In this document: positions 41-16,586 of the stretch, in pieces
Position numbering within the stretch: the stretch's first letter is position 1
How the letters are laid out: each line of letters begins with the position of its first letter
Source: Alphaproteobacteria bacterium
Lineage (GTDB): Bacteria > Pseudomonadota > Alphaproteobacteria > SHVP01
Length of the DNA stretch: 34,370 nt
Assembly: GCA_029936875.1 (NCBI GenBank)
Contig: JAPYRS010000014.1
Location: forward strand, 1-34,370
Reading direction: 5' to 3'
Program-made: the position numbers and the translations under genes
Notes under the pieces: generated by a model
Databases searched by the model: none
What the model saw: the letters and a program-made list of their open reading frames with translations, nothing else
Told to the model about the DNA's origin: nothing

Positions 41-1006
41 ATGCGCCCACCAATTGATGCGACCAGCGACGACCAGCACACCCATTCGCTGCCGGACAGC
101 TACCTTGTTTACGAGCAGCGCAAATACGGCATGGACCATGACTTCTACGATTGGTCGATCCTGCCGCGCCGGAAGCCGGTGACCTGGCCGAATGATGCCC
201 GCATTGCCCTTTGGGTGACGCCGGTGCTCGAATTCTTCCCGCTCAATACGCCGGTGAAGCCGTTCAAGGCGCAGGGCGGCATGGTGACGCCGTATCCTGA
301 TCTCCGGCATTTCACCTTGCGCGAATACGGCAACCGGGTCGGATTGTTCCGGGTCTTAAAAATCATGGATGAACTCGGCATCAAAGGCACCGTGCCGATG
401 AACAGCGACGTCGCCAAGCGCATGCCGTTTCTAGTCGAGGAGGTCGTCCGCCGCAATTGGGAAATCATCGCCCACGGCGTCAACATGGGAAAACTTCATT
501 ATTCCGGATTGGACGAGGCCGAAGAACGTGCCCAGGTCCAGGAATCGCTTTCGACGCTGCGGGAAATTTCCGGTCAAAAGGTGCGCGGCTGGTTATCGCC
601 GGCGCGGTCTGAATCCTACAACACGCCCGATCTCGTCGCCGCCGAAGGTGTCGATTACCTGTGCGACTGGATCAATGACGACATGCCGTATCCGTTCCGC
701 ACCAAGTGGGGCGGCGTGACCGCGATGCCGCATCAGCACTGGATATCTGATGTCCAGATCCTGTTCTTTTACAAGCAGAGCGGCGACGAATTCGTCCAGC
801 AGGTGAAGGACCAATTCGACACGCTTCACCGCGAAGCTGGCGAACAGGGCGGCCGCATTATGGCGATCACCATTCACCCGTGGATGTCGGGCCAACCGCA
901 CCGGATCAAGTATCTCGAGAAGGCGCTGGAATATGTCATGGGCCAATCGGGGGTCTGGACCGCGACCGGCTCCGAGATATTGGATAGCTGGAAAGGCCAG
1001 CAGTAA
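41..1006 (+). CDS. Polysaccharide deacetylase family protein (NodB/PuuE-like)
   Basis: A 321-residue cytoplasmic protein with no signal peptide. The NodB-type barrel runs from about residue 50 to 315: a beta strand with 'ALWVTPVLEFFP', the segment 'EIIAHGVNMGKLH' (H145, H153), the 'RGWLSPARSESYNT' strand near 182-195 and the late 'ITIHPWMSGQPHR' motif with H279. This arrangement is typical of the PuuE/allantoinase-like branch that acts on small amide or ureide substrates rather than on cell-wall sugar. The classical HxxxxH metal pair of chitin deacetylases is not obvious. The start at 41 follows a weak GAGG about 8 bases upstream; a later in-frame ATG at 131 also exists. The gene converges on the methyltransferase, with a shared terminator between them. 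Substrate unknown. Confidence 0.85.
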   Translation: MRPPIDATSDDQHTHSLPDSYLVYEQRKYGMDHDFYDWSILPRRKPVTWPNDARIALWVTPVLEFFPLNTPVKPFKAQGGMVTPYPDLRHFTLREYGNRVGLFRVLKIMDELGIKGTVPMNSDVAKRMPFLVEEVVRRNWEIIAHGVNMGKLHYSGLDEAEERAQVQESLSTLREISGQKVRGWLSPARSESYNTPDLVAAEGVDYLCDWINDDMPYPFRTKWGGVTAMPHQHWISDVQILFFYKQSGDEFVQQVKDQFDTLHREAGEQGGRIMAITIHPWMSGQPHRIKYLEKALEYVMGQSGVWTATGSEILDSWKGQQ

Positions 1007-1078: not shown

Positions 1079-2236
1079 CTACCGCTTCCAGGCGCCGAAG
1101 ATGAACCAGCCACCCGGCGCTTCCCGGTACGGATTGTCGTCGGTCGGCGAGCAGTATTTCGCCATTTCCATAATGATGTCGTCGTCGTGGAAACCGGCAC
1201 GCCGTGCCACGTCCGGCAGATCCATATCGTGCATCGGGCCCCAGAACGGCTCGTTGTTGTTGTGGGTATCCCAGTCGCGAATGAACTGATCAAACGGATC
1301 GTCGAACCACTTGAACGGCGGCTGTTCGACATGAACCATCAACCCGCCCGGCTTCAGCAGCCGGTGGCATTCCTCGACGATGTTGTGCACGGCGCGGTTT
1401 GACGTCTCGTGCAGGAACATGGTCGAAACGACGAGATCAAAGCTCTCCGGCTCGTATTCGGTATGCTCCGCATCCCGTTGCGCGAAATGAATCTCGTAAC
1501 CGAGGCTTTCCGCGCGGCGATGGGCATAACGCAGCACCGGCGCGCCGATGTCGATTGCATTAACCTCGGCATCCGGCCAAGCATATTTAAACGGAAGCGT
1601 ATTGCCGCCAGCCGTGCAGCCTTCATCCAATACGCGTTCCGGTTTGAATTCCGGATGATTTTCGTTCAGCCAATGGACAACCGCGTGGCCGGCACCGTCG
1701 TTGTATTTGCCAATTGTGCCCGAAAGCGCAATGTAGAGCCCGCCGGTGTCGTACATGGCACCAGCGGCGACATCACCCTCAGCACGCTCGGTGTAATAAC
1801 TGCCCGGCATCCAATGCATGTCGAGCGCCTTCTGATACCTCGGAACCTCAAAATCAGGATCGATTTCCACGGTGCCTAAATCATCGTCACGCGGCTTTGC
1901 CTCTTCGATCAGGTCGCTCAGCTGGCGATTGATGATTTCGCGGCGAATGTCATAGCTTTTGCCTTGGCCGTAGAGGCGAAGGTGGCTCCAGAATTGAAAA
2001 TACGGGTCCTTCAACATCGCCTTCCGCACTTCATGGCGGGTCTCCGGCTCGCGGCCGTTTTCTTTTTCAAACTTCGGTTTGACGCGTTCGTCATAAACCT
2101 TGCGATGCCCCGGCGCGACATTGCGGCCAAGGTGCCGGTAAAAGCTCATGATGAAATCCATGTTCGCCGTCTCGTCGTGATTCATGTCGGCGCGCATACC
2201 GTGTTGGCCAAATCCAGCCCATGTTGCTTCGCTCAT
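1079..2236 (-). CDS. Class I SAM-dependent methyltransferase with long N-terminal extension
   Basis: A 385-residue protein. The Rossmann methyltransferase domain occupies roughly residues 195-340: motif I 'VLDEGCTAGGNT' (202-213), an acidic strand-2 end 'VNAIDIG' (226-231), 'FDLVVSTMFLHE' (motif IV, near 266-277) and 'LLKPGGLMVHVEQP' (post-motif). About 190 residues precede it and do not match a domain I recognise; they are rich in charged residues and contain 'PGSYYTERAEGDVAAGAMYDTGG'. The ATG at 2236 follows GAGG, and a consensus -10 box lies about 33 bases upstream of the start codon. Transcribed in the same direction as the 2339-4978 cassette, 102 bp downstream of it. The methyl acceptor, probably a small molecule, is unknown. 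Confidence 0.85.
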   Translation of the reverse strand: MSEATWAGFGQHGMRADMNHDETANMDFIMSFYRHLGRNVAPGHRKVYDERVKPKFEKENGREPETRHEVRKAMLKDPYFQFWSHLRLYGQGKSYDIRREIINRQLSDLIEEAKPRDDDLGTVEIDPDFEVPRYQKALDMHWMPGSYYTERAEGDVAAGAMYDTGGLYIALSGTIGKYNDGAGHAVVHWLNENHPEFKPERVLDEGCTAGGNTLPFKYAWPDAEVNAIDIGAPVLRYAHRRAESLGYEIHFAQRDAEHTEYEPESFDLVVSTMFLHETSNRAVHNIVEECHRLLKPGGLMVHVEQPPFKWFDDPFDQFIRDWDTHNNNEPFWGPMHDMDLPDVARRAGFHDDDIIMEMAKYCSPTDDNPYREAPGGWFIFGAWKR

Positions 2237-2338: not shown

Positions 2339-3223
2339 TTATAGATCGAAATTCTCTGCGTCGTAGCGCCCACCTGCGGCCAGCACTGATTCCGTGCCGA
2401 GCACGTCCTGGAGCTGATCAAAATCGAGCATCCGGTTGCGGTAGGCGTTGGTGGAGCCGGTCTCGTGCAGCGAGCTCAAATATTCGCTCGCCATATAGGA
2501 ATAGGCGCGAATTAGCCCGCCCGGGAAAATCACCAGCGAATATCCGAGTTCCTGCAATTCGGCGGCACCCTTCATCGGTGTTTTTCCGCCCTCAACCATG
2601 TTGGCGAGCAACGGCACGCGGTCCCGGAACTGGGCGGTCAGTGTTTTCATCTGCTCGTCATTTTGCGGCGCTTCGATGAACAGAACGTCAACGCCGGCTT
2701 CAACGTAGCGCTCCGCTCTTTCCAAGGCGCTCTCGAACCCTTCGACGGCGATTGCGTCGGTGCGGCCGATGATCAGTGTTTGTTCGCTGCGGCGGGCGTC
2801 GACGGCGGCCTTGATCTTGCCGACCATTTCAGAGGCTGAGACCAGCGTCTTCCCGTTCAGGTGGCCGCAACGTTTCGGCATCGTCTGGTCTTCCAGCTGG
2901 ATTCCATTTGCGCCGGCGCGTTCAAACAGACGCACCGTCCGCTGCACGTTGAGCGCATTGCCAAACCCGGTATCACCGTCAACAACCAGCGGGATATCGT
3001 TGTATTCGGAGATCGAACTCACGGTTTCGGCGACTTCATGCATGCTGACCAGGCCAATGTCGGGCCGGCCGATGCGGGTGAAGGAAACGCTCGCCCCGGA
3101 AATATAGGCGACCGAAAAGCCGGCCTTCGCCACCAGCATCGACGAAAAGGCGTCGTAACAGCCGGGTGCAACGACAATGTCGTCGCGGCTGAGCAGTTCT
3201 TTCAACGGAACATAATTGGTCAA
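2339..3223 (-). CDS. Isocitrate lyase/PEP mutase family lyase (dimethylmalate lyase-like)
   Basis: A 294-residue TIM-barrel enzyme of the ICL/PEPM superfamily. Visible signatures are 'APGCYDAFS' (19-27), the Mg2+-binding 'VDGDTGFGN' (81-89; D82, D84), 'IQLEDQ' (108-113) and the catalytic-loop motif 'KRCGH' with C119. Family members cleave a C-C bond in 2-hydroxy di- or tri-acids (methylisocitrate, dimethylmalate, oxaloacetate) or act on phosphonates. The start is TTG at 3223, preceded by AAAGGAAAG at good distance; the upstream small-subunit stop TAA is one base away. Coupling to an aconitase-type large/small pair argues for dimethylmalate lyase-like chemistry rather than PrpB, which is normally linked to methylcitrate synthase. 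Substrate is inferred. Confidence 0.85.
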   Translation of the reverse strand: MTNYVPLKELLSRDDIVVAPGCYDAFSSMLVAKAGFSVAYISGASVSFTRIGRPDIGLVSMHEVAETVSSISEYNDIPLVVDGDTGFGNALNVQRTVRLFERAGANGIQLEDQTMPKRCGHLNGKTLVSASEMVGKIKAAVDARRSEQTLIIGRTDAIAVEGFESALERAERYVEAGVDVLFIEAPQNDEQMKTLTAQFRDRVPLLANMVEGGKTPMKGAAELQELGYSLVIFPGGLIRAYSYMASEYLSSLHETGSTNAYRNRMLDFDQLQDVLGTESVLAAGGRYDAENFDL

Positions 3224-3224
3224 C

Positions 3225-3710
3225 TTACTTTCCTTTCAACTTCTTCTTGAGATGCGGCAAGAGGCCGCCGTCCCGTACAATTTCCATCAGGTGAGGGGGC
3301 ACCGTTTCGCACGCATAGGTCTCACCGCGGGTCAGGTTCTCGACCTTACCTTTTTCAGCGTCGATACGAAGTTCGTCGCCTTTTTGGACCTTACCTGCGT
3401 CCTCGCAAACCAGGGGGATAACACCGAGGTTGAAGGCGTTGCGATAAAAAATTCGCGCAAAGCTTTTTGCGACGACGACGTTCACGCCCAAAATCGAAAG
3501 ACTTTGCGCGGCCTGTTCGCGCGACGATCCAATGCCAAAATTATCACCGCCAACGACGATATCGCCCGGCGCGACAGTGGTCGCGAAGTCCGGGTCAATG
3601 CTTTCAAGACAATGTTTCGCCATCTCCTCGACCGAGCCCTTGAGATAGGCACCGGGCGCGAGCACATCGGTGTTGATATCGTTGCCGTAAACCCAGGCGG
3701 CACCGGTCAT
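3225..3710 (-). CDS. Aconitase-family hydro-lyase small subunit (LeuD/DmdB-like)
   Basis: A 161-residue swivelling-domain subunit, the usual size for short LeuD, HacB and DmdB proteins. It shows 'YGNDINTDVLAPG' near the N-terminus (8-20) and the substrate-loop signature 'GDNFGIGSSREQA' (55-67), followed by 'AKSFARIFYRNAFNLGVIPL'. The frame is open further upstream, but the ATG at 3710 is chosen because it overlaps the large-subunit stop in an ATGA arrangement, typical of translational coupling for obligate heterodimers. Together with the 3707-4978 subunit it should form a [4Fe-4S] hydratase or isomerase. Isopropylmalate isomerase is the common annotation, but the adjacent lyase favours a 2,3-dimethylmaleate-type substrate. 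Confidence 0.88.
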   Translation of the reverse strand: MTGAAWVYGNDINTDVLAPGAYLKGSVEEMAKHCLESIDPDFATTVAPGDIVVGGDNFGIGSSREQAAQSLSILGVNVVVAKSFARIFYRNAFNLGVIPLVCEDAGKVQKGDELRIDAEKGKVENLTRGETYACETVPPHLMEIVRDGGLLPHLKKKLKGK

Positions 3711-4978
3711 GCGACGTCTCCGACTTCGCGTGGGTCGATGATGCGGCCGGCAACGGCGGCGGCGGCAACGGCGTAGGGCGATCCGAGATAAACCTTGGCG
3801 TGCGCTGACCCCATGCGGCCTGGAAAGTTTCGGTTGGTGGAGGATATGCACGTATCGCCCGAGGAAAGAATGCCGGCACCCAATCCAGCGCAAGCGCCGC
3901 AACCGGACGGAAGCAATATTGCGCCCGCGGCGGTAAGCGTGGCTAACGTGCCATCAGCTGCTGCGGCCGCGGTGATGCGGGTTGAGGCCGGGGCAACAAG
4001 GAAGCGCGTATCGGTTGCCACCGTCTTGCCCTTGATCACGGCCGCGGCCATTTGCAGGTCTTCCAGTTTCGCACCGGTGCAGGCACCGATGTAAGCCTGC
4101 TGCACGGCAATGTTCTTGTAATCCTCGACCGGTGCGGCATTGGCCGGGCTGTGCGGGGCTGCGACCTGCGGCGACAACGTGCTCGCATCGAAATTCAAGG
4201 TGTCTTCGTATTCGCAGTCAGAATCGCTGAACCAGTCGAGCGCGCCCTCGGTTTTTGCGCCGTGCTCTTCGAGCCAATCGACCGTCACCTGGTCGGGCGC
4301 GATGATGCCGGTTTTTGCGCCGACTTCCGCCGTCATGTTGGGCAGAACCATGCGTTCATCCATCGACAGTGACGTGACACCGTCACCGGCAAATTCGACG
4401 ACCTTGTAATTAGCGCCGTTGAGGCCAATTTCGGCACACAGTTTCAGCATCATGTCTTTGGCGGTGACATATTTTGAAAGCGATCCGCTCCAGTTCACCA
4501 GAATGGTCGGCGGCACGTTGATCCAGATTTCGCCGGTGACCAAAACGCCGGTCATGTCGGTCGCACCGATGCCGACCATGAACGAGCCGAACGCGCCGCC
4601 GGTCGGTGAATGCGAATCGCCGCCGACTGCAAAAAGTCCGGGATGAAGATGTCCGCGCTCCGGCAATACGATGTGACAGATGCCCTGCATATCGTAAAAA
4701 TGCGGAATGCCTTGGTCCTTAACCCAATCGCGGGTGATTTTCAGAATTTCAGCGCTGAGCGCATCCACCGCCGGAACGTAATGGTCGGTAATGACGACGA
4801 CCTTGTTGGGGTCCCAGACGTCGACGCCGAGTTCCTTGAGGCGGGGTTCCTGCCTGCGCGCGCCACTCGAATCGTGAGTCATCGCGAGGCCGACCTTGCA
4901 GGTGACGATTTCGCCGGGCCGGACAATGTCCTGGCCGCAGGCATCCGCAATTATCTTTTCCGAAAGCGTCATGCCCAT
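3707..4978 (-). CDS. Aconitase-family hydro-lyase large subunit (LeuC/DmdA-like)
   Basis: A 423-residue protein, the length of the short LeuC2/homoaconitase/DmdA class. 'TCKVGLAMTHDSSG' and 'VVITDHYVPA' lie in the first third; 'FAVGGDSHSPTGGAFGSFMVGIGATD' is the classic family block near 116-141. The three [4Fe-4S] ligands are C300 ('YIGACTGAK') plus C360 and C363 ('GCGACAG'); the usual 'SCTNSR' and 'CGPC' wording is altered to 'ACTGAK' and 'CGAC', a divergence from true LeuC. The ATG at 4978 has a perfect AGGAGG at 4988-4993, nine bases away. First gene of the three-gene cassette; the 198 bp upstream separate it from a divergent gene and probably hold its promoter, which I could not pinpoint. 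Confidence 0.88.
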   Translation of the reverse strand: MGMTLSEKIIADACGQDIVRPGEIVTCKVGLAMTHDSSGARRQEPRLKELGVDVWDPNKVVVITDHYVPAVDALSAEILKITRDWVKDQGIPHFYDMQGICHIVLPERGHLHPGLFAVGGDSHSPTGGAFGSFMVGIGATDMTGVLVTGEIWINVPPTILVNWSGSLSKYVTAKDMMLKLCAEIGLNGANYKVVEFAGDGVTSLSMDERMVLPNMTAEVGAKTGIIAPDQVTVDWLEEHGAKTEGALDWFSDSDCEYEDTLNFDASTLSPQVAAPHSPANAAPVEDYKNIAVQQAYIGACTGAKLEDLQMAAAVIKGKTVATDTRFLVAPASTRITAAAAADGTLATLTAAGAILLPSGCGACAGLGAGILSSGDTCISSTNRNFPGRMGSAHAKVYLGSPYAVAAAAVAGRIIDPREVGDVA

Positions 4979-8146: not shown

Positions 8147-9808
8147 TTACGAATCAAGAAATTCCGAAATAACTTTGGCGTCGGCTTCCGGGTTGCCCGG
8201 CAATGGCACCGCGTCCGACCCGGCGAGGTTCGAAACAAAACCCGCGAAGATATCGTTCTCACGCGCACATACTAACGTTGGTATATCGGCAGAGGCGAGG
8301 CTTTCGGCGATCGGATAATTGAAGGCCTCCGACCATATGTCGGCGTAGTTCCCATAGTGCTTCATAATGCCGGTGAGTTTGAACGATAGAAAATCCGGAT
8401 CGATTTCCGGCTCGATATTACGAATGCTTTCAACCGATTCGACAAACCATGGCGAGAACAGTTGTTCATTGCGCAATGCGTGCCAAAGGTGAACGAGATG
8501 GGTTCCGTCCCATTTCGGTTCAATTTTCGAGGCATAACCGTTCCGCCACGTTTCGCGGCTTTTATCGTCAAGCGCCATCGGGCCATCGAGGACGATCCGA
8601 CCAACCTCGCTTGAGTCGTGGACGAGAAAGGCGGCGACAATCGACGCCCCGGAGTTTCGCCCATAAAGATCGTAATCCTTGACCGACAGCTTGCTTAGGA
8701 CTTGATGCAGCGCGCCCGCATAAGCCTGAATGTTGTTCGGCAAAAAATCCTCGCTATCGCCGTTGCCGGGCGGATCGAAGGCGATCACGCGCCGCGTCGT
8801 GCCGAGTTCCAGCATCATCGGTTCGAGAACGTCAGACGCGCCCGGCACGTGCGGCACCATCACCAGAGGCCGCGCTTCCCCGGCTCCGGTCATGCGCACA
8901 AATACCTGGCCGATACCGAAATCGACAAAGCCGCATTGCACGCGGCCCGGCAGTTCTGCGGGGTCCGGCGGCGGCGGCGCGTCACCCGGTTCGAGATGTT
9001 CCTTGAATATCTCGGCGTAGCGTTCGTCAGCGGCACCTTTGTCGCGACCGAGCGTCTCAATCCAGCAGCAATCCGGCAGATCCTTCAAAAGATCGAACGC
9101 TTTGACCAGCGAATCATCTTCGCGCGCAGCAAAGCAGGTTTTTGATTTCAACTCGTAGGGCGCGTCCAGGCCCTTGTAGCGAAATACCGACGAATAACCG
9201 ACAGCGTAATCGCGTCCGGTCATCAACCGCGGCAGCACGCCAGCCTGGGTGCGGACGGGGTCGGTCGGCACGGCGTTCGAACGGTTATCTTTGTGGTGCC
9301 GGAAGGTCGGCGAAAAAATAAATTGCTCGCGAAATTTCATCCACAGATGCAACAGGTGGCTTCCGTCCCACCTCGGTTCGTAGGGCGGCATGTAAAATTT
9401 CGTCATGTCGGCCCGGTATTCGTCGGTGTAACCAGGGTAGCCGTCGAACACGGTGATGGACGCGCGTTCCGGATAGCGGCGAATGAATTCAATCGCGATG
9501 CTGGCGCCGGTGTGCGACCCGTAAATGCCGCAGCGTTCAATGCCGAGCGCGTCGAGCGTGTCTTTGAGCGACTCCGAATAGTCGGGGATCTCCGGCACTT
9601 CCTTATCGAGCAAATCGGAGAGGCCATAACCCGGTGTGTCGAGCGCAATCGCCGTAAAATTCTTGGCGAATGCCTTAATCGTCGGAATGATGCCGCCGGA
9701 CCAGCTTGGGCTCGCATGAAGCATGATCACCGGCGGGCCTTCGCCCGCGCGGCGGTAGTGGACGCGGCGTGTGCCGACGGTGACAAAATGACGTGTTATG
9801 CGGCTCAT
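8147..9808 (-). CDS. Double-domain alpha/beta-hydrolase-fold protein, nucleophile replaced (H/N)
   Basis: A 553-residue protein made of two fused alpha/beta-hydrolase domains (about 1-265 and 290-553) joined by a proline-rich linker near 276-285. Domain 1 has 'VIMLHASPSWSGG' (oxyanion region), 'ALDTPGYGLSD' and the elbow 'YGSHTGASIA', where the nucleophile position is H99. Domain 2 has 'FDPPGNGDSE' and the elbow 'YGRNSGASIV', where it is N385. Neither has the Ser, Asp or Cys expected of a hydrolase or dehalogenase. Both share a 'WDG(S/T)HL(L/V)HLW' block, showing descent from one duplication. The ATG at 9808 follows GGGGACC; 15 bp after the related 9824-11503 gene. Function unknown: non-hydrolytic lyase, oxygenase-like or binding role possible. 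Confidence 0.85.
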   Translation of the reverse strand: MSRITRHFVTVGTRRVHYRRAGEGPPVIMLHASPSWSGGIIPTIKAFAKNFTAIALDTPGYGLSDLLDKEVPEIPDYSESLKDTLDALGIERCGIYGSHTGASIAIEFIRRYPERASITVFDGYPGYTDEYRADMTKFYMPPYEPRWDGSHLLHLWMKFREQFIFSPTFRHHKDNRSNAVPTDPVRTQAGVLPRLMTGRDYAVGYSSVFRYKGLDAPYELKSKTCFAAREDDSLVKAFDLLKDLPDCCWIETLGRDKGAADERYAEIFKEHLEPGDAPPPPDPAELPGRVQCGFVDFGIGQVFVRMTGAGEARPLVMVPHVPGASDVLEPMMLELGTTRRVIAFDPPGNGDSEDFLPNNIQAYAGALHQVLSKLSVKDYDLYGRNSGASIVAAFLVHDSSEVGRIVLDGPMALDDKSRETWRNGYASKIEPKWDGTHLVHLWHALRNEQLFSPWFVESVESIRNIEPEIDPDFLSFKLTGIMKHYGNYADIWSEAFNYPIAESLASADIPTLVCARENDIFAGFVSNLAGSDAVPLPGNPEADAKVISEFLDS

Positions 9809-9823
9809 ACAGGGTCCCCGAAA

Positions 9824-11503
9824 CTAGGCATCCAAAAAGTCGCGCAGGATTTGTGCGGCGTCGTCGGTAATAACATCGAACCAAGCGTGGCCATAGGTCT
9901 TGATGGTGTGGATGCGCCCATTTTTGAAATTGCCTTCGGCGCGTTTTGTTTGTTCGGTGAGATCGTCGTCGAGGTTGATAATCAGCATCTCCTGATCGAT
10001 CTCGCCCATCCGCTTTAGCATCGGATAATTGAAGGCGGCGCGATGTCCCCAGTGTGAAATTGGTCCGCCGCGTAATCCTTCCGCGTAGTTTCGCAGCAAA
10101 ATATTTCGCGGCACTGTCGGCCCATAAAACGGAATCATGTTGAGCCAGCGTTTGACGAGATGCGAGCCGTCGTCAGAAAAACTCGGCGGGGAATAAAGCC
10201 CACGAAATTCTTCGAGCTCCTCATCACTGAAGATCGGCGCCGAATTCATGACAATCTTTCGAATCAGATCGGGGCGCTGACGCGCGACTTCGACGCAGGT
10301 CTCAGAGCCGGTGTGGTAGCCCATGAGATCGACTTGGCCATACCCCAAGGCCTCGATCACGTGAATGATCGCGCGTGCGTAATCCTCAATTTCCGGCGGC
10401 TCCGCCGGTGCCTCCGATTCGCCGAAACCCGGTGTATCAACTGCCACCACGGCGCGTTCCTTGCCGAGGGTTTGCAGGATGGCTTCATAAATGCGGCCTG
10501 AATTGGGGCTCGAATGAAGGCAGAAAAACGGGATTGCGGTCGCATCTTCAGGTTCAATGAGGCGAAGGTGGAGCTGTCCTGAAGGGCCGTTGATAAAGCG
10601 CTTGGTGAAACCAATATCGGTACCTGCTTTTTGATCGGGCGTTGGCTTCCCATCTCCCGGCGCGGATGCTGCCTCGTCGCTATCAAAAATGCTCCGGAGG
10701 ATTTCCGCGACTTCCTCGGTGTGCGTGTCGAGCATGCCGTGGCCGGCCCAATCCGGCATCTCCACAACCTGCCCGTTGTTGAGGTATTCGGTCGCTCGTA
10801 GAGTTTGTTCGTATAGATCGTCTTTCGGGCAAAGGATGGTTATCGGCTGGCTCGCCTTCGGCAGATTTTCGGCGTGAAGATAGTTGAATGCGGCTCGGTG
10901 CCCCCACGGCAGCGCGTCCCCGGCACGAAGCGATTCAGCAATCTCGCGGTGCAGATAAAGGGACGTGGCGTCTTTTGATTTCCAATTCGACTGGCCGTCC
11001 CAGCTTGCCTGCAGGAATTTGCCTGCGTCGTCCGGCTCGCGGCCGGAATAATCGCGGCGCTGGCGGCTAAGCTCTTCCTCGGTGTAGATCGGCGCGGAGA
11101 CCAGAATGCACCGCCTTACTTGTGCCGGGCGTTGGAGCGCGAGCTCAAGTGCGATTTTGGAGCCGGTGTGGTAGCCCATCACATCGACTTCGCCGATGTC
11201 GAGCGCATCGAGCAGGTCGCCCATCGCAGCTGCATAATCCTCGATCTCGGGAGGCTCAGCCGGCGCATTCGAATCACCAAAACCGGGTGTGTCAGGTGCG
11301 ATTGCAATCCGGTCTTTGCCCATTTCGCTAAGCAGCTGTCCGTAAATCCGTCCGGAACTTGGACTCATGTGAAAACAGATCAGTGGTGTTTTCGACGGTT
11401 TTTCCGGCTGCGCGATGCGGTAATGGATTTGCCCAAAACGCGCGTCCGCATAATCCCGACGCACACTTGGTGCGGGCCGCCAGAATTTTTCGTCGTCATT
11501 CAT
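9824..11503 (-). CDS. Double-domain alpha/beta-hydrolase-fold protein, both nucleophiles replaced by His
   Basis: A 559-residue protein from the ATG at 11503. The longer frame to 11545 would overlap the SDR gene, and GGGAA precedes 11503. Two alpha/beta-hydrolase domains (about 20-275 and 300-559) are strikingly alike: each has 'DTPGFG-S-APAEPPEIEDYA', the elbow 'MGYHTGS' and 'WGHRAAFNY'. At the elbow the nucleophile position is H112 in domain 1 and H397 in domain 2. The rest of a triad looks present (acids near 228-229 and 512; H255 in 'WAGHGM', H539 in 'YGHAWF'). The linker near 276-295 is rich in Ala, Gly, Pro, Asp and Lys. Soluble, no signal peptide. Lies between the SDR and the second double protein; likely one operon. 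Reaction unknown. Confidence 0.87.
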   Translation of the reverse strand: MNDDEKFWRPAPSVRRDYADARFGQIHYRIAQPEKPSKTPLICFHMSPSSGRIYGQLLSEMGKDRIAIAPDTPGFGDSNAPAEPPEIEDYAAAMGDLLDALDIGEVDVMGYHTGSKIALELALQRPAQVRRCILVSAPIYTEEELSRQRRDYSGREPDDAGKFLQASWDGQSNWKSKDATSLYLHREIAESLRAGDALPWGHRAAFNYLHAENLPKASQPITILCPKDDLYEQTLRATEYLNNGQVVEMPDWAGHGMLDTHTEEVAEILRSIFDSDEAASAPGDGKPTPDQKAGTDIGFTKRFINGPSGQLHLRLIEPEDATAIPFFCLHSSPNSGRIYEAILQTLGKERAVVAVDTPGFGESEAPAEPPEIEDYARAIIHVIEALGYGQVDLMGYHTGSETCVEVARQRPDLIRKIVMNSAPIFSDEELEEFRGLYSPPSFSDDGSHLVKRWLNMIPFYGPTVPRNILLRNYAEGLRGGPISHWGHRAAFNYPMLKRMGEIDQEMLIINLDDDLTEQTKRAEGNFKNGRIHTIKTYGHAWFDVITDDAAQILRDFLDA

Positions 11504-11516
11504 ATTGCTGTTCCCA

Positions 11517-12308
11517 TCATTCCGGGTCGGAAGCGCGCAGGTCATCCTGCGAAAAAATCAGTCCCGTCGAATCAAAGCCGCCGTCAACATTCAACGTTAC
11601 GCCGGTGGTAAAGTCGCACTCCGGCGAGACGAGATAGGCAACCGCTGCCGCGATCGCCCCTGTCGTGCCGTAGCGGCGCATCGGAATGCGGTCGAGGTAA
11701 CTTGAGACCGTGCCTTCGCTGTGGTCGGTGATGTCGGTCCGAATCGGGCCGGGTGCAATCGCGTTCACGGCAATATTTTCCGGTGCAAACTCGACCGCCA
11801 TGATCCGGGTCAGCATCAACATGCCGGCTTTGGATGTGCCGTACGCGCCGCGTCCGGTGCCGCCCCGTTGCCCGGAAATTGAGGCGATGTTGACGATGCG
11901 GCCACCGCCGCGCTTTGCCATGACGGGGGCGGCGGCTTTGCAAAACAAAAACGTGCCGGTGAGATTAACGCGAAGTACGCGCTCCCATTCTTCTAGCGTC
12001 GTGTCGAGCACCCGCCGGTTGGGCGCGATGCCGGCGTTATTTACCAGAATGTCGATGCCGCCGTAGGTCGATGTGGCGAACGCAATCGCCTCGTCACCTG
12101 AATGTTCGCCGGCAACATCAATGGCGAGAGGCGTGGCAGTGCCGCCGTCTTTGTTGATCGCGGCCGATGATTCCATTGCCGTCTTCCCATCGATTTCGAC
12201 GATGATGAGGCTGGCGCCGTCGCGGGCAAGGCGTTCGGCAATGGCGCGGCCAATGCCGCGACCGGCACCGGTCACCAGCGCAACTTTACTTTCAAGAACT
12301 GGCATCAT
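11517..12308 (-). CDS. Short-chain dehydrogenase/reductase (SDR)
   Basis: A classical SDR of about 263 residues: 'VALVTGAGRGIGRAIAERLA' (TGxxxGxG NAD(P) motif), acidic 'IIVEIDG' after strand 2 (suggesting NAD+), 'ILVNNAGIA', catalytic Ser in 'IVNIASISGQRG' and 'YGTSK' (YxxxK), then 'NAIAPGPIRTD' and the usual C-terminal 'GVTLNVDGGFDSTG'. It oxidises or reduces an alcohol/ketone pair. AGGGAGG lies directly before two consecutive ATG codons at 12308 and 12305; a GTG at 12329 is also possible. First gene of the minus-strand run to 5973 and 13 bp ahead of the double hydrolase gene, so the two probably serve the same substrate. Confidence 0.9.
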   Translation of the reverse strand: MMPVLESKVALVTGAGRGIGRAIAERLARDGASLIIVEIDGKTAMESSAAINKDGGTATPLAIDVAGEHSGDEAIAFATSTYGGIDILVNNAGIAPNRRVLDTTLEEWERVLRVNLTGTFLFCKAAAPVMAKRGGGRIVNIASISGQRGGTGRGAYGTSKAGMLMLTRIMAVEFAPENIAVNAIAPGPIRTDITDHSEGTVSSYLDRIPMRRYGTTGAIAAAVAYLVSPECDFTTGVTLNVDGGFDSTGLIFSQDDLRASDPE

Positions 12309-12508
12309 CCTCCCTAAGCTCGTATTCACCCGGCCCCGTCATCAAGATGCAGGTGTTTTTCTGAAATCGACTGTGCCGGGCGGAACGGTGCCTCGTCAAC
12401 GGCAAAGCAACCGCAGATTTAATATGCATTGATTGCGAAATTGATCAGAGGCGCGCTAGTGTCCGCCCCGGTTATTGGTCACGCGCATTGAAGGGGCTAG
12501 GGGAAAGC

Positions 12509-13177
12509 ATGGACTGGACAACTTTTTGGATTTTCATCCACATCTTGGTGATGGCGTTTTGGCTCGGCGGCGACATGGGAGCTTACTACGCAGCCAAGCT
12601 TTTCGTGCGGACGGAATATTCACCCGAGACCCGCGCTGTGCTCGCCCGTGTGATGCAGGGCGTCGATATCTTCCCGCGCCTCTCGATGGTGCTGGTCCTG
12701 CCTACGGGCATGACGCTCGCCGCTCGCACCGGCATCTCGCTGGTCGATGGCGGGTGGCTGACCTTGCTTTGGATCTTGAGCCTCACCTGGCTGTTTCTCG
12801 TCTGGAACGTGCACCGGCCGACCGCGCCCGAATGGGGCAAAAAACTTCAGGGCCTCGACACATTGATAAACTGGGTTTTGCTGGTGGTCGTCATGGTCGC
12901 GGCAATCGGCTCGCTGGTTTCAAACCATCCGTTCACCGAAACCTGGCTCGCGGTCAAAGTATTTTTCTACGGCATCACGTTTGTGATTTTGATTGCCGTC
13001 AACATGATGCTGAAGCCGTTCGGCCCGGCGTTTGCGCGCTTGCTTTCGGAAGGGTCGAGCCCGGAAGTCGAAGCCATCATCAAAGGCTCGATCGATAAAT
13101 CAAAACCGATGATCTGGGCGATCTGGGCCATCGTCGTGATCAATACGGCGATTGGGCTGTTTAAACCCGTTTTCTGA
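12509..13177 (+). CDS. Multi-pass membrane protein (CopD/DUF2269-like)
   Basis: A 222-residue inner-membrane protein with about five hydrophobic segments: residues 3-25 ('WTTFWIFIHILVMAFWLGGDMG'), about 50-70, 80-100, 117-140, 150-170 and a last one around 200-219. A histidine in helix 1 and the 'FWLGGD' turn resemble CopD/DUF2269-type proteins, some of which bind heme or copper. I cannot confirm a ligand set. The ATG at 12509 is preceded by AGGGGAA at ideal distance; an upstream ATG at 12488 lacks one. It stands alone, divergent from the SDR run and convergent with the nitrilase (8 bp between stop codons). Confidence 0.75.
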   Translation: MDWTTFWIFIHILVMAFWLGGDMGAYYAAKLFVRTEYSPETRAVLARVMQGVDIFPRLSMVLVLPTGMTLAARTGISLVDGGWLTLLWILSLTWLFLVWNVHRPTAPEWGKKLQGLDTLINWVLLVVVMVAAIGSLVSNHPFTETWLAVKVFFYGITFVILIAVNMMLKPFGPAFARLLSEGSSPEVEAIIKGSIDKSKPMIWAIWAIVVINTAIGLFKPVF

Positions 13178-13185
13178 TTCGCAGA

Positions 13186-14925
13186 TTAAGTGGTTGGGTT
13201 GGGCGACGTAATCGCGTCCATGAGCCACCACGGTCGGCTGTCGACCAGATCGGTGTTGAGGGTGATGGTCCGGTTTTCGGAGCAGATCGGGTAGATTGTC
13301 GCCTGTGTCAGGCCCGGCGCGCCATCGGTTCGGGTGACAATCGGTGTATTCAGATTGCCGTCAAAGGGACGGTGCTTCCATTCGGTCCAAAGCGTGAAGT
13401 CTTCGTCGGTCGCGAGGATCGCACTGGCGCCTGCCGGGCCGGGCTGGCTCGCCATGACGAGGTTCATGCGGTTCTCGGCCGCTCTCTCAAGAAGTCCGGT
13501 GGTCAACTCCCAGGTCTCGAGTGTTTTCGATGGCAGGGCGGCAATCGCCACATCTTTCAAAGCCAGCAGGCGAAACGTTTCCGGGAACACATTGTCGCCG
13601 CCAACAACGACGGCAATTCGCCCCCAGGACAGATCAAGGGTCGGCTGTTCGTTGCCGAGTGACGTCACCCAACTTTGATGACGACCGGCGACATGAATTT
13701 GGCTCTGGCGAAGCCGAATGCCGCCAGCACTGATCAGCACGCCGACATGGGCAACGCCGTCATTGCGACGTTCGACAATTGAGGTCGAGACCAACCTGTC
13801 GTCGTCAGATCCTTCGAGTGCTTTGGCAATCGCGTCTGTGGCCCGCACCGAAAGCGCGATGGCCGCGTCAACATCATCGACGACACCGTCTTCGAGAAAA
13901 AACAACTCGGGTAGCACAACAAGCGAGACGCCGTTCTTTATTGCTTCGGCTGCTGCCGTTGCGGCCTCGTCAATCGCAGCTTCCCCGACCATTTCCGGCT
14001 GATACACGGCGGCTTCAACCTGATCCGCGCCTGGCAGAATGTTACGGGGGCCGGGCTTGGCGGCAAGCGGGGCGTACAGTTCGGGACGCCGTGCCTTAAA
14101 TACGTCGGTGCCGTCAGGACGGACCTTGTCGTCTGCTTCGGCCACCTCGATGTCGGCGAAGATCACCGCCTCGACGCCGCGCGGTGCAATCGCCAGCACG
14201 GTGCCGTCCGGCGCAACGATTTGGCTTTCACCAGTCCCCGACATCTGGTCTTCGGATATTTTTAGGCGTTTGGTAGCAACCGGTAATATTTCGTCGGAAA
14301 CTAGTTGACCGACTTTGTTGGCCGAAACGACGAAGACTTTATTTTCTGCGGCGCGAACTGGAATATGAAGCGTAGCCTCGTCGTCGCCGAAAGAATTGAG
14401 ACTGTTGCAAAGGATATGCGCGCCGCGCAGCGCGATGCCCCGTGCGGTCTCCATGATCACCCCGTCCATGCACGAATAAAGTGCGACGTTGCCAAACGGC
14501 GTCTCAACGATTGGCGACACCTCTTCCGCGGTTTCCAAAAAATTCGTTTCGTTGCCCATCAGCACCTGCTTGTCTGCGGTGGCGACAAGTTTGCCTTCAG
14601 GGTCAAACAGAATGTTTGTGCCGGTGACGGCATTGTTGCGGCGGCGCACAGTGCAGTTCGCCATGATGTAACATTTATGCTCGCGCGCTTTGGCGCCGAT
14701 CCCGCTGAGGAATGATCCGTCGAGCGATGTCGCAACCGTGTAGGCGTGGTCTTCATCCCGCCACCACGACTGGTGATTGAGAAATTCCGGAAGCACGATG
14801 AGGTCGGGCTTGTTCGCCGCCGCTTCGTCGATCATGCGCTGGCAGGTCTTAAGGTTCTCGTGTTCGTCAATTCCGACTGCGAACTGAACCGCAGACACAC
14901 GTACCTTTTCACCTAGCTTAGACAT
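13186..14925 (-). CDS. Tandem nitrilase-superfamily protein: active first domain, degenerate second
   Basis: A 579-residue protein with two carbon-nitrogen hydrolase domains (about 8-285 and 300-565). Domain 1 keeps the triad: E47 ('IVLPEFLN'), K119 ('TADKQVLMG') and C152 ('LYSCMDG'), so it should cleave an amide, carbamoyl or nitrile bond. Domain 2 keeps E340 ('VVLPELFF'), but the Lys position is Q409 ('RQSQIHVAG') and the Cys position is G442 ('VVVGGDNVFPET'), so it cannot form the thioester and is probably structural or substrate-sensing. Single nitrilase domains are about 270 residues, so this is a fusion. The ATG at 14925 has a weak AAGAGA upstream. It lies 12 bp after a VOC gene and is likely co-transcribed with it. 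Confidence 0.87.
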   Translation of the reverse strand: MSKLGEKVRVSAVQFAVGIDEHENLKTCQRMIDEAAANKPDLIVLPEFLNHQSWWRDEDHAYTVATSLDGSFLSGIGAKAREHKCYIMANCTVRRRNNAVTGTNILFDPEGKLVATADKQVLMGNETNFLETAEEVSPIVETPFGNVALYSCMDGVIMETARGIALRGAHILCNSLNSFGDDEATLHIPVRAAENKVFVVSANKVGQLVSDEILPVATKRLKISEDQMSGTGESQIVAPDGTVLAIAPRGVEAVIFADIEVAEADDKVRPDGTDVFKARRPELYAPLAAKPGPRNILPGADQVEAAVYQPEMVGEAAIDEAATAAAEAIKNGVSLVVLPELFFLEDGVVDDVDAAIALSVRATDAIAKALEGSDDDRLVSTSIVERRNDGVAHVGVLISAGGIRLRQSQIHVAGRHQSWVTSLGNEQPTLDLSWGRIAVVVGGDNVFPETFRLLALKDVAIAALPSKTLETWELTTGLLERAAENRMNLVMASQPGPAGASAILATDEDFTLWTEWKHRPFDGNLNTPIVTRTDGAPGLTQATIYPICSENRTITLNTDLVDSRPWWLMDAITSPNPTT

Positions 14926-15683: not shown

Positions 15684-16586
15684 ATGGCGGTTGATTTCGG
15701 CCTTGGGCCTATTTTACTGGCGACCGTGAGTGTCGAAAATGCCGCGGCCGCTGCGGACCTCTATGCCGCCTCCTTCGGGTTTGAAATCATTCAGTCCGGC
15801 ATCCTTACAGATGAGCAGACTGCCAGCTGGGCCACGCCGGGCCTGACCGGCGCAAACTTCACCATCGTCGCACCGCCGGGCCGCGCACCGGGCTGGATTC
15901 GATTTATCGAGAGTCCGGGTGCCGGTGCTTACCGGCCATTGGGTAGCTCGGGCTGGGCGGCAATCGAGATTCTCGTCCAGGATACCGACGCCGTCGCAAG
16001 AAGCCTTGAAGGGTCGCTGTTCGAGGTTATTGGCGAGCCGAAGAGCCTGACCAACTTTCCGGAAATTCGGGCGATGCAGGTGATCGGGCCGATGGGCGAG
16101 GTGCTCTATCTCACCACTTTGCCGGAAAGTGTCGGCGATTTTCGCCTGCCGACCGCCGTCGATGCCATCGACCGCGTCTTCATCGTCATCTTGGCCACCC
16201 GCAATTTCAAAGGTGTCACCGAAGGTTTCGCTGCCGACTTCTCAATACCGATTGGCAACATCCGAAAGCGCGGCGTCTATTTCGAGGGTGAGACCTACGG
16301 CCACGAACCCGCCGAAGATATGTCGATGACGACACTACAGATGAATCGGCACAGTCTGATTCAGGTTGATGAATACCCGAACGCGGTGCCTGATCGGCCG
16401 GAGGTCGCGGGCGCTCTCCCGTCCGGGTTTGCCGTGGCAACGTTTGCGGTGCCGTCAATTGAACCGTTCATCGCGCGCGCTCTTGGCCCCGTCGTCAGGC
16501 TGGATGACGAGCCCTATACCGGTCGGCGCGCCCTGATGATCCGCAACCTGGAAGGCTGGCTCACCGAACTGGTCGAAACGGGATAG
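15684..16586 (+). CDS. Two-module VOC family protein
   Basis: A 300-residue protein with two glyoxalase-like halves. The first spans about 6-125 ('LLATVSVENAAAAADLYAASFGFEII ... AMQVIGPMGEVLYLT'). The second spans about 145-298 ('DRVFIVILATRNFKGVTEGFAADFSIPIG ... RRALMIRNLEGWLTELVE'). This is the length of two-module VOC enzymes such as extradiol dioxygenase relatives, but no clear H-H-E iron triad is visible. AAGGGG at 15673-15678 precedes the ATG by five bases. It is divergent from the 14938-15447 VOC gene; the 236 bp between them probably hold both promoters, with no motif I can defend. It converges on the GST gene. Confidence 0.78.
   Translation: MAVDFGLGPILLATVSVENAAAAADLYAASFGFEIIQSGILTDEQTASWATPGLTGANFTIVAPPGRAPGWIRFIESPGAGAYRPLGSSGWAAIEILVQDTDAVARSLEGSLFEVIGEPKSLTNFPEIRAMQVIGPMGEVLYLTTLPESVGDFRLPTAVDAIDRVFIVILATRNFKGVTEGFAADFSIPIGNIRKRGVYFEGETYGHEPAEDMSMTTLQMNRHSLIQVDEYPNAVPDRPEVAGALPSGFAVATFAVPSIEPFIARALGPVVRLDDEPYTGRRALMIRNLEGWLTELVETG

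Follow-up and report, generated by a model that had tools for sequence, protein, structure and literature searches.

The two proteins described here are members of a bacterial family of alpha/beta-hydrolase-fold proteins that is large, widespread and apparently undescribed and that conserves a His-for-Ser swap at the nucleophile elbow, a swap that points to what may be an unstudied active-site chemistry. They are encoded side by side in a marine alphaproteobacterium (Alphaproteobacteria bacterium, GTDB SHVP01; assembly GCA_029936875.1, contig JAPYRS010000014.1), on a stretch of 34,370 nt that was analysed as a whole and that we call the window. Our best explanation, which we put forward tentatively, is that they are enzymes with a rearranged Ser(HxSP)-His(elbow) site, encoded in a degradative operon.

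Two tandem proteins with histidine at the nucleophile elbow

The genes and the active-site positions considered below are as follows, in window coordinates.

9824-11503, minus strand: P0002, 559-residue tandem alpha/beta-hydrolase-fold protein, GxHTG in both domains
8147-9808, minus strand: P0001, 553-residue tandem alpha/beta-hydrolase-fold protein, GSHTG in domain 1 and a degenerate GRNSG in domain 2
11168-11170, minus strand: H112, elbow of P0002 domain 1 (GYHTG)
10313-10315, minus strand: H397, elbow of P0002 domain 2 (GYHTG), aligned with the nucleophile position of a DhaA variant (HDWG)
9512-9514, minus strand: H99, elbow of P0001 domain 1 (GSHTG)
8654-8656, minus strand: N385, elbow of the degenerate P0001 domain 2 (GRNSG)
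11363-11365, minus strand: S47 of HMSP, oxyanion-loop Ser of P0002 domain 1, co-varying with the elbow His
10508-10510, minus strand: S332 of HSSP, oxyanion-loop Ser of P0002 domain 2, aligned with the Asn of DhaA HGNP
9710-9712, minus strand: S33 of HASP, oxyanion-loop Ser of P0001 domain 1
10820-10822, minus strand: D228, strand-7 acid of P0002 domain 1, 40/40 in the alignment of the 559-residue type
9965-9967, minus strand: D513, strand-7 acid of P0002 domain 2, 38/40 in the same alignment
10739-10741, minus strand: H255, late His of P0002 domain 1, 27/40, Met in 8
9887-9889, minus strand: H539, late His of P0002 domain 2, 24/40, Tyr in 8

An alternative upstream ATG would extend P0002 to 573 residues. 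The first-pass annotation of this DNA had read His at three elbows and Asn at the fourth, and the minus-strand open reading frames confirm H112, H397, H99 and N385; the Ser, Asp or Cys of the classical hydrolases is found at none of them. The further claim that these domains have no serine nucleophile holds for the elbows, but the active site may still contain a serine, contributed by the oxyanion loop (S47, S332 and S33). That the late His and the acid are mostly kept is correct for both domains of P0002 (pairs D228/H255 and D513/H539) but not for P0001, in which the late His is missing from both domains and the acid D232 is kept in domain 1.

Both proteins are members of the alpha/beta-hydrolase fold. 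Each has two stretches that match Pfam Abhydrolase_1 (PF00561; 60.6 and 93.8 bits against a curated cut-off of 25.8), and AlphaFold2 models built on homologues, with mean pLDDT values of 94.2 (P0002) and 93.8 (P0001), place all of the elbow residues at strand-to-helix turns. Foldseek comparison with solved structures gave E values down to 1.5e-16, the nearest being carbonyl hydrolases, C-C hydrolases and dehalogenases. We found no solved structure closer to P0001 or P0002 than the canonical enzymes, and in the 60 best profile matches this elbow was not recognised in any solved relative. Membership in a known curated family was rejected, since every NCBIfam score fell below its cut-off: none of the named equivalogs (HsaD, PcaD, MenH, RutD and others) was reached, and the best scores were 73.1 for HsaD (cut-off 400) and 91.1 for PcaDC (cut-off 390). 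Existing annotation of the family reads simply "alpha/beta hydrolase" or hypothetical protein. We also rejected a phage origin; matches in PHROGs were limited to generic esterases/lipases plus a single FabG-like family, and scanning viral contigs with a single protein gave no match.

Distribution of the family

A search for other GxHTG proteins was positive, and 40 proteins of the 559-residue type and 32 of the 553-residue type were aligned. We assembled 300 non-identical homologous domains, 291 of which could be scored at the elbow: the elbow is HTG in 226 and has another residue in 65. What we call the HTG clade is recognised by an HxS/TP oxyanion loop together with a GxHTG elbow in at least one domain, and both P0001 and P0002 have these features. 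The window's own genome contains about a dozen genes with an HTG-type elbow, and profile searches of three relatives in its taxonomic family returned 42, 43 and 13 domain matches per genome; the family is strongly expanded there.

Scans of genome contigs with a single protein and with a broad alignment gave no matches, but a profile scan with a close alignment revealed 330 loci in the genome collection that encode relatives. The 80 of these that were kept are mostly marine or freshwater Alphaproteobacteria by label, although the labels of metagenome-assembled genomes may be wrong, and they also include Steroidobacteraceae, Nevskiaceae, Sphingomonas, Hyphomonas, Nocardioides and others. On annotated plasmids, relatives occur in Novosphingobium, Variovorax, Comamonas, Azospirillum, Shinella, Rhodococcus and Streptomyces, and the best-matching protein of every one of these plasmid loci has GxHTG. 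With six candidates scored per genome, a strict threshold was reached by at least 30 of 385 sampled genomes of the class and by at least 6 of 399 of the phylum. Members are present in Alpha-, Beta- and Gammaproteobacteria and in Actinomycetota. The suggestion of a new system is not supported in the sense of one confined to this DNA: P0001 and P0002 have relatives at hundreds of loci.

A separate side group has TPLSS in the oxyanion loop and an elbow that reads STG in the window's own genome and ATG in relatives (L084:3571-4440, minus strand; L074:6115-6909, plus strand; L096:11726-12532, plus strand).

Probable maintenance of three elbows and decay of the fourth

In the first domain of the 559-residue type the elbow is HTG in 39 of 40 proteins and HGG in the other, in the second domain it is HTG in 38 of 40, and in the first domain of the 553-residue type it is HTG in 29 of 32, at a mean pairwise identity of about 38-43% in these three domain sets. 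The second domain of the 553-residue type is different: over the 32 proteins its elbow drifts across G, W, Q, N, K and other residues, and its mean pairwise identity is 29%, against 38% for the first.

In a tree of the domains, every HTG domain falls within an HTG-rich group that excludes 17 canonical outgroups, the edge isolating this group having a weak support of 0.24. Two subfamilies within it are supported at 0.975 and 0.999. Each of them contains both first and second domains, which suggests that two independent internal duplications took place. P0001 domain 2 falls in a clade of 29 second domains, most of which have lost the elbow (support 0.957).

From the elbow counts and the tree placement, three of the domains look maintained and the fourth, that of N385, looks decayed. 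The view that the elbow His is maintained by selection and is not decaying, already voiced in the first-pass annotation, is supported by these alignments. Decay as an account of all four domains was rejected for three of them on the same grounds and accepted for the fourth, and so the idea of a new chemistry does not extend to P0001 domain 2, which belongs to a decayed lineage.

Gene neighbourhood

The neighbouring genes in the window are the following.

11517-12329, minus strand: SDR-family dehydrogenase, 13 bp upstream of P0002
7152-8117, minus strand: glycosyltransferase-9-family (GT9) protein, 29 bp downstream of P0001
6451-7125, minus strand: carboxymuconolactone decarboxylase (CMD)/AhpD-family protein
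12488-13177, plus strand: 229-residue protein, hydrophobic by sequence, no Pfam or NCBIfam match
13186-14925, minus strand: tandem carbon-nitrogen hydrolase (nitrilase family)
3707-4978, minus strand: aconitase/isopropylmalate-dehydratase-family large subunit (LeuC/DmdA-like)
3225-3902, minus strand: LeuD/DmdB-family small subunit
2339-3223, minus strand: PEP-mutase/isocitrate-lyase-family C-C lyase (methylisocitrate/dimethylmalate lyase-like)

The genes for the SDR, P0002, P0001, GT9 and CMD proteins share one orientation and are separated by 13, 15, 29 and 26 bp. The adjacency of the SDR, pointed out earlier as the sign of a functional unit, recurs outside the window, an SDR homologue lying directly before the P0002 homologue in five other loci of the window's taxonomic family. 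GT9 homologues occupy the same neighbourhood in several genomes, as does the tandem nitrilase in several of the family's other P0002 loci, and the closest homologue of the 229-residue protein (56-62%) adjoins a P0002 homologue in four other genomes. LeuC homologues (67-70%) and LeuD are found near the P0002 homologue in several close relatives. Operon content varies outside the window's taxonomic family, where LeuC/LeuD-family genes lie near HTG genes on two sphingomonad plasmids, LeuCD and a PEP-mutase lie near an HTG gene on an Azospirillum plasmid, and single-domain HTG members are surrounded by degradative genes on plasmids from several bacteria.

We read the cluster as a putative degradative gene set. 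Its nearest described counterpart among pathways may be the nicotinate-type dimethylmaleate route (DmdAB hydratase and 2,3-dimethylmalate lyase), in that the window and the Azospirillum plasmid share LeuC/LeuD-family and PEP-mutase/ICL-family genes, together with an HTG gene; the likeness is one of family-level matches only, and the lyase of the window scores below the prpB cut-off.

Several other observations were made in the course of examining the neighbourhood. By eye, the second half of the tandem nitrilase has neither the Lys nor the Cys of its catalytic triad, and the protein therefore looks, as P0001 does, like one intact and one degenerate domain. A 300-residue protein (15684-16586, plus strand) has a weak glyoxalase-fold hint and no PDB match, and its homologues are also near HTG genes on sphingomonad plasmids. 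Homologues of a PuuE-like polysaccharide-deacetylase-family protein (41-1006, plus strand) are likewise near HTG genes elsewhere, one of them, on a Comamonas plasmid, being 55% identical. The 385-residue SAM methyltransferase (1079-2236, minus strand) belongs to a family that is common at HTG loci and of which genomes in the window's taxonomic family carry 15 to 61 copies each. Given these copy numbers, a functional link between methyltransferase and HTG genes was rejected as no better than chance: in G006 a methyltransferase is near 5 of 21 HTG loci, where 2.8 would be expected (p 0.13, with coordinates for 35 of the 40 copies).

Co-variation around the elbow and a proposed active site

The identity of the elbow residue is coupled to that of the oxyanion loop. 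At the position two residues after the loop His, Ser or Thr is present in 215 of 222 domains with an HTG elbow, and Ser in about 15% of domains without the elbow His; the few His-elbow domains that depart from HxSP Ser/Thr have Ala or Asn instead. The Thr after the elbow is present in 29% of domains without the His against 100% of those with it, the latter figure following from the definition of the HTG group. In first domains of the 553-residue type, Ser is kept at the S33 position in 30 of the 31 that have a residue there; in the second domains the equivalent residue is A, G, L, V, S, I, D or P, so that the elbow and oxyanion-loop positions drift together in P0001-type second domains. Part of the co-variation is shared ancestry, many of the His-less domains forming one second-domain clade. 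The third element, the strand-7 Asp, is nearly invariant in the 559-residue type (40/40 and 38/40), even though the late His (27/40 and 24/40) is replaced in about a third of these proteins, frequently by Met or Tyr.

In the haloalkane dehalogenase class, the side chains of the HGNP Asn and of the nucleophile both line the pocket. Alignment with DhaA (HGNPTSS...HDWG against HSSPNSG...YHTG) places the family's Ser at the Asn of HGNP and its elbow His at the nucleophile position. From this placement and from the co-variation we infer an active Ser-His pair, to which the Asp may be added. The clade combines a conserved elbow His with a conserved oxyanion-loop Ser/Thr (HxSP...GxHTG). In the proposed mechanism, the His would be the catalytic base, acting on the neighbouring Ser/Thr or on water, and in proteins that lack the late His it would be oriented by the strand-7 Asp; the usual Ser-His-Asp set would be rearranged and not lost. 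The 559-residue protein would have two such sites, and the 553-residue protein one, with its decayed second domain retained as structure. With an SDR, a tandem nitrilase, a CMD-family protein, a LeuCD-type hydro-lyase and a PEP-mutase/ICL-type C-C lyase as its companions, the operon role would be degradative, and we infer that the most likely substrate is an intermediate with a carbonyl group: an ester, lactone or amide, or a compound of the kind that C-C hydrolases cleave.

It is possible, if rather unlikely, that the site works as a general base with no serine at all, the elbow His, alone or together with the late His and Asp, taking a proton without formation of an acyl-enzyme, as in decarboxylation, retro-aldol or retro-Claisen cleavage, elimination or cofactor-free oxygenation. 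Carboxy-lyases of the same fold use a D/E-H dyad without serine, according to the sections of the superfamily classification drawn on here (PMC11878206), many members of the family keep the late His and Asp, and CMD-family, hydro-lyase and C-C lyase genes are among the neighbours. This reading leaves unexplained, however, why the HxSP Ser/Thr and the elbow His are lost jointly, and at least a third of members have another residue in place of the late His, which is normally the base in dyads of this kind. The same replacements make it decidedly doubtful that the elbow His is itself a covalent nucleophile, forming an acyl- or alkyl-imidazole intermediate while the late His/Asp serve as general base: the model and the DhaA alignment do put it at the nucleophile position, and many members of the 559-residue type keep the late His and Asp, but the elbow His persists where the late His is absent (553-residue protein) or is Met or Tyr (part of the 559-residue type), and we found no precedent for this fold in the open-access literature.

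A metal site built from the elbow His, the late His and the acid is highly improbable. Two His and a carboxylate do meet at the classical triad place in the 559-residue type, but a large share of the family has no late His and still keeps the elbow His, and we recognised no further family-specific invariant His beyond positions that are commonly His in ordinary members too. The disappearance of every canonical nucleophile from the elbows could also mean that these are non-catalytic ligand-binding or sensor proteins derived from hydrolases, in which the His and Ser only shape the pocket, and the expansion of duplicated, divergent paralogues in the window's taxonomic family resembles a binding-protein repertoire. 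We consider this unlikely; the pocket residues rank among the most conserved columns, and single-domain members are part of the plasmid degradative gene sets described above.

Relation to known enzymes

The best matches in both sequence and fold are canonical Abhydrolase_1/_6 enzymes (HsaD, BphD, PcaD, AidH and E-2-(acetamidomethylene)succinate hydrolase). With P0001 and P0002 they share the fold, the strand-turn-helix elbow, an HGxP-like oxyanion loop, the cap and the strand-7 acid; the canonical elbow is Ser, whereas in the HTG family it is His, the oxyanion residue is fixed as Ser/Thr and the late His is dispensable. Also near the family in sequence and fold are the haloalkane and fluoroacetate dehalogenases and the epoxide hydrolases, which have an Asp elbow. 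Where the dehalogenases have an Asp nucleophile and the halide-binding Asn of HGNP, the HTG family has His and Ser. Two genomes encode proteins that resemble haloalkane dehalogenases and have HGNPTSSYLW, with a Gly standing where the nucleophile Asp would be (GHGWG; L095:11018-12067, minus strand, and L062:10274-11209, minus strand), and each of these loci also holds a P0002-type paralogue.

In the open-access literature we found no described enzyme of this fold with a His elbow, in agreement with the first-pass annotation, which knew of none with this architecture. The sections of the 2024 superfamily classification (PMC11878206) drawn on here name none either; they describe elbows of Ser, Asp or Cys, or serine-less dyads, and do not mention His. 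The serine-less carboxy-lyase dyad enzymes and CGI-58, treated in those sections, resemble the HTG family in having no elbow Ser and offer a precedent for other chemistry, but unlike the HTG family they are not reported there to have a conserved elbow His or its coupling to an HxSP Ser/Thr.

Significance of the family

Few enzyme scaffolds have been studied as thoroughly as the alpha/beta-hydrolase fold, whose elbow nucleophile is assumed to be Ser, Asp or Cys. A large clade that fixes a His at the elbow and a Ser/Thr opposite it would, if our reading is true, mean that this fold allows its catalytic set to be rearranged. Dozens of paralogues per genome in these marine alphaproteobacteria, currently labelled as plain hydrolases, would also gain a function.
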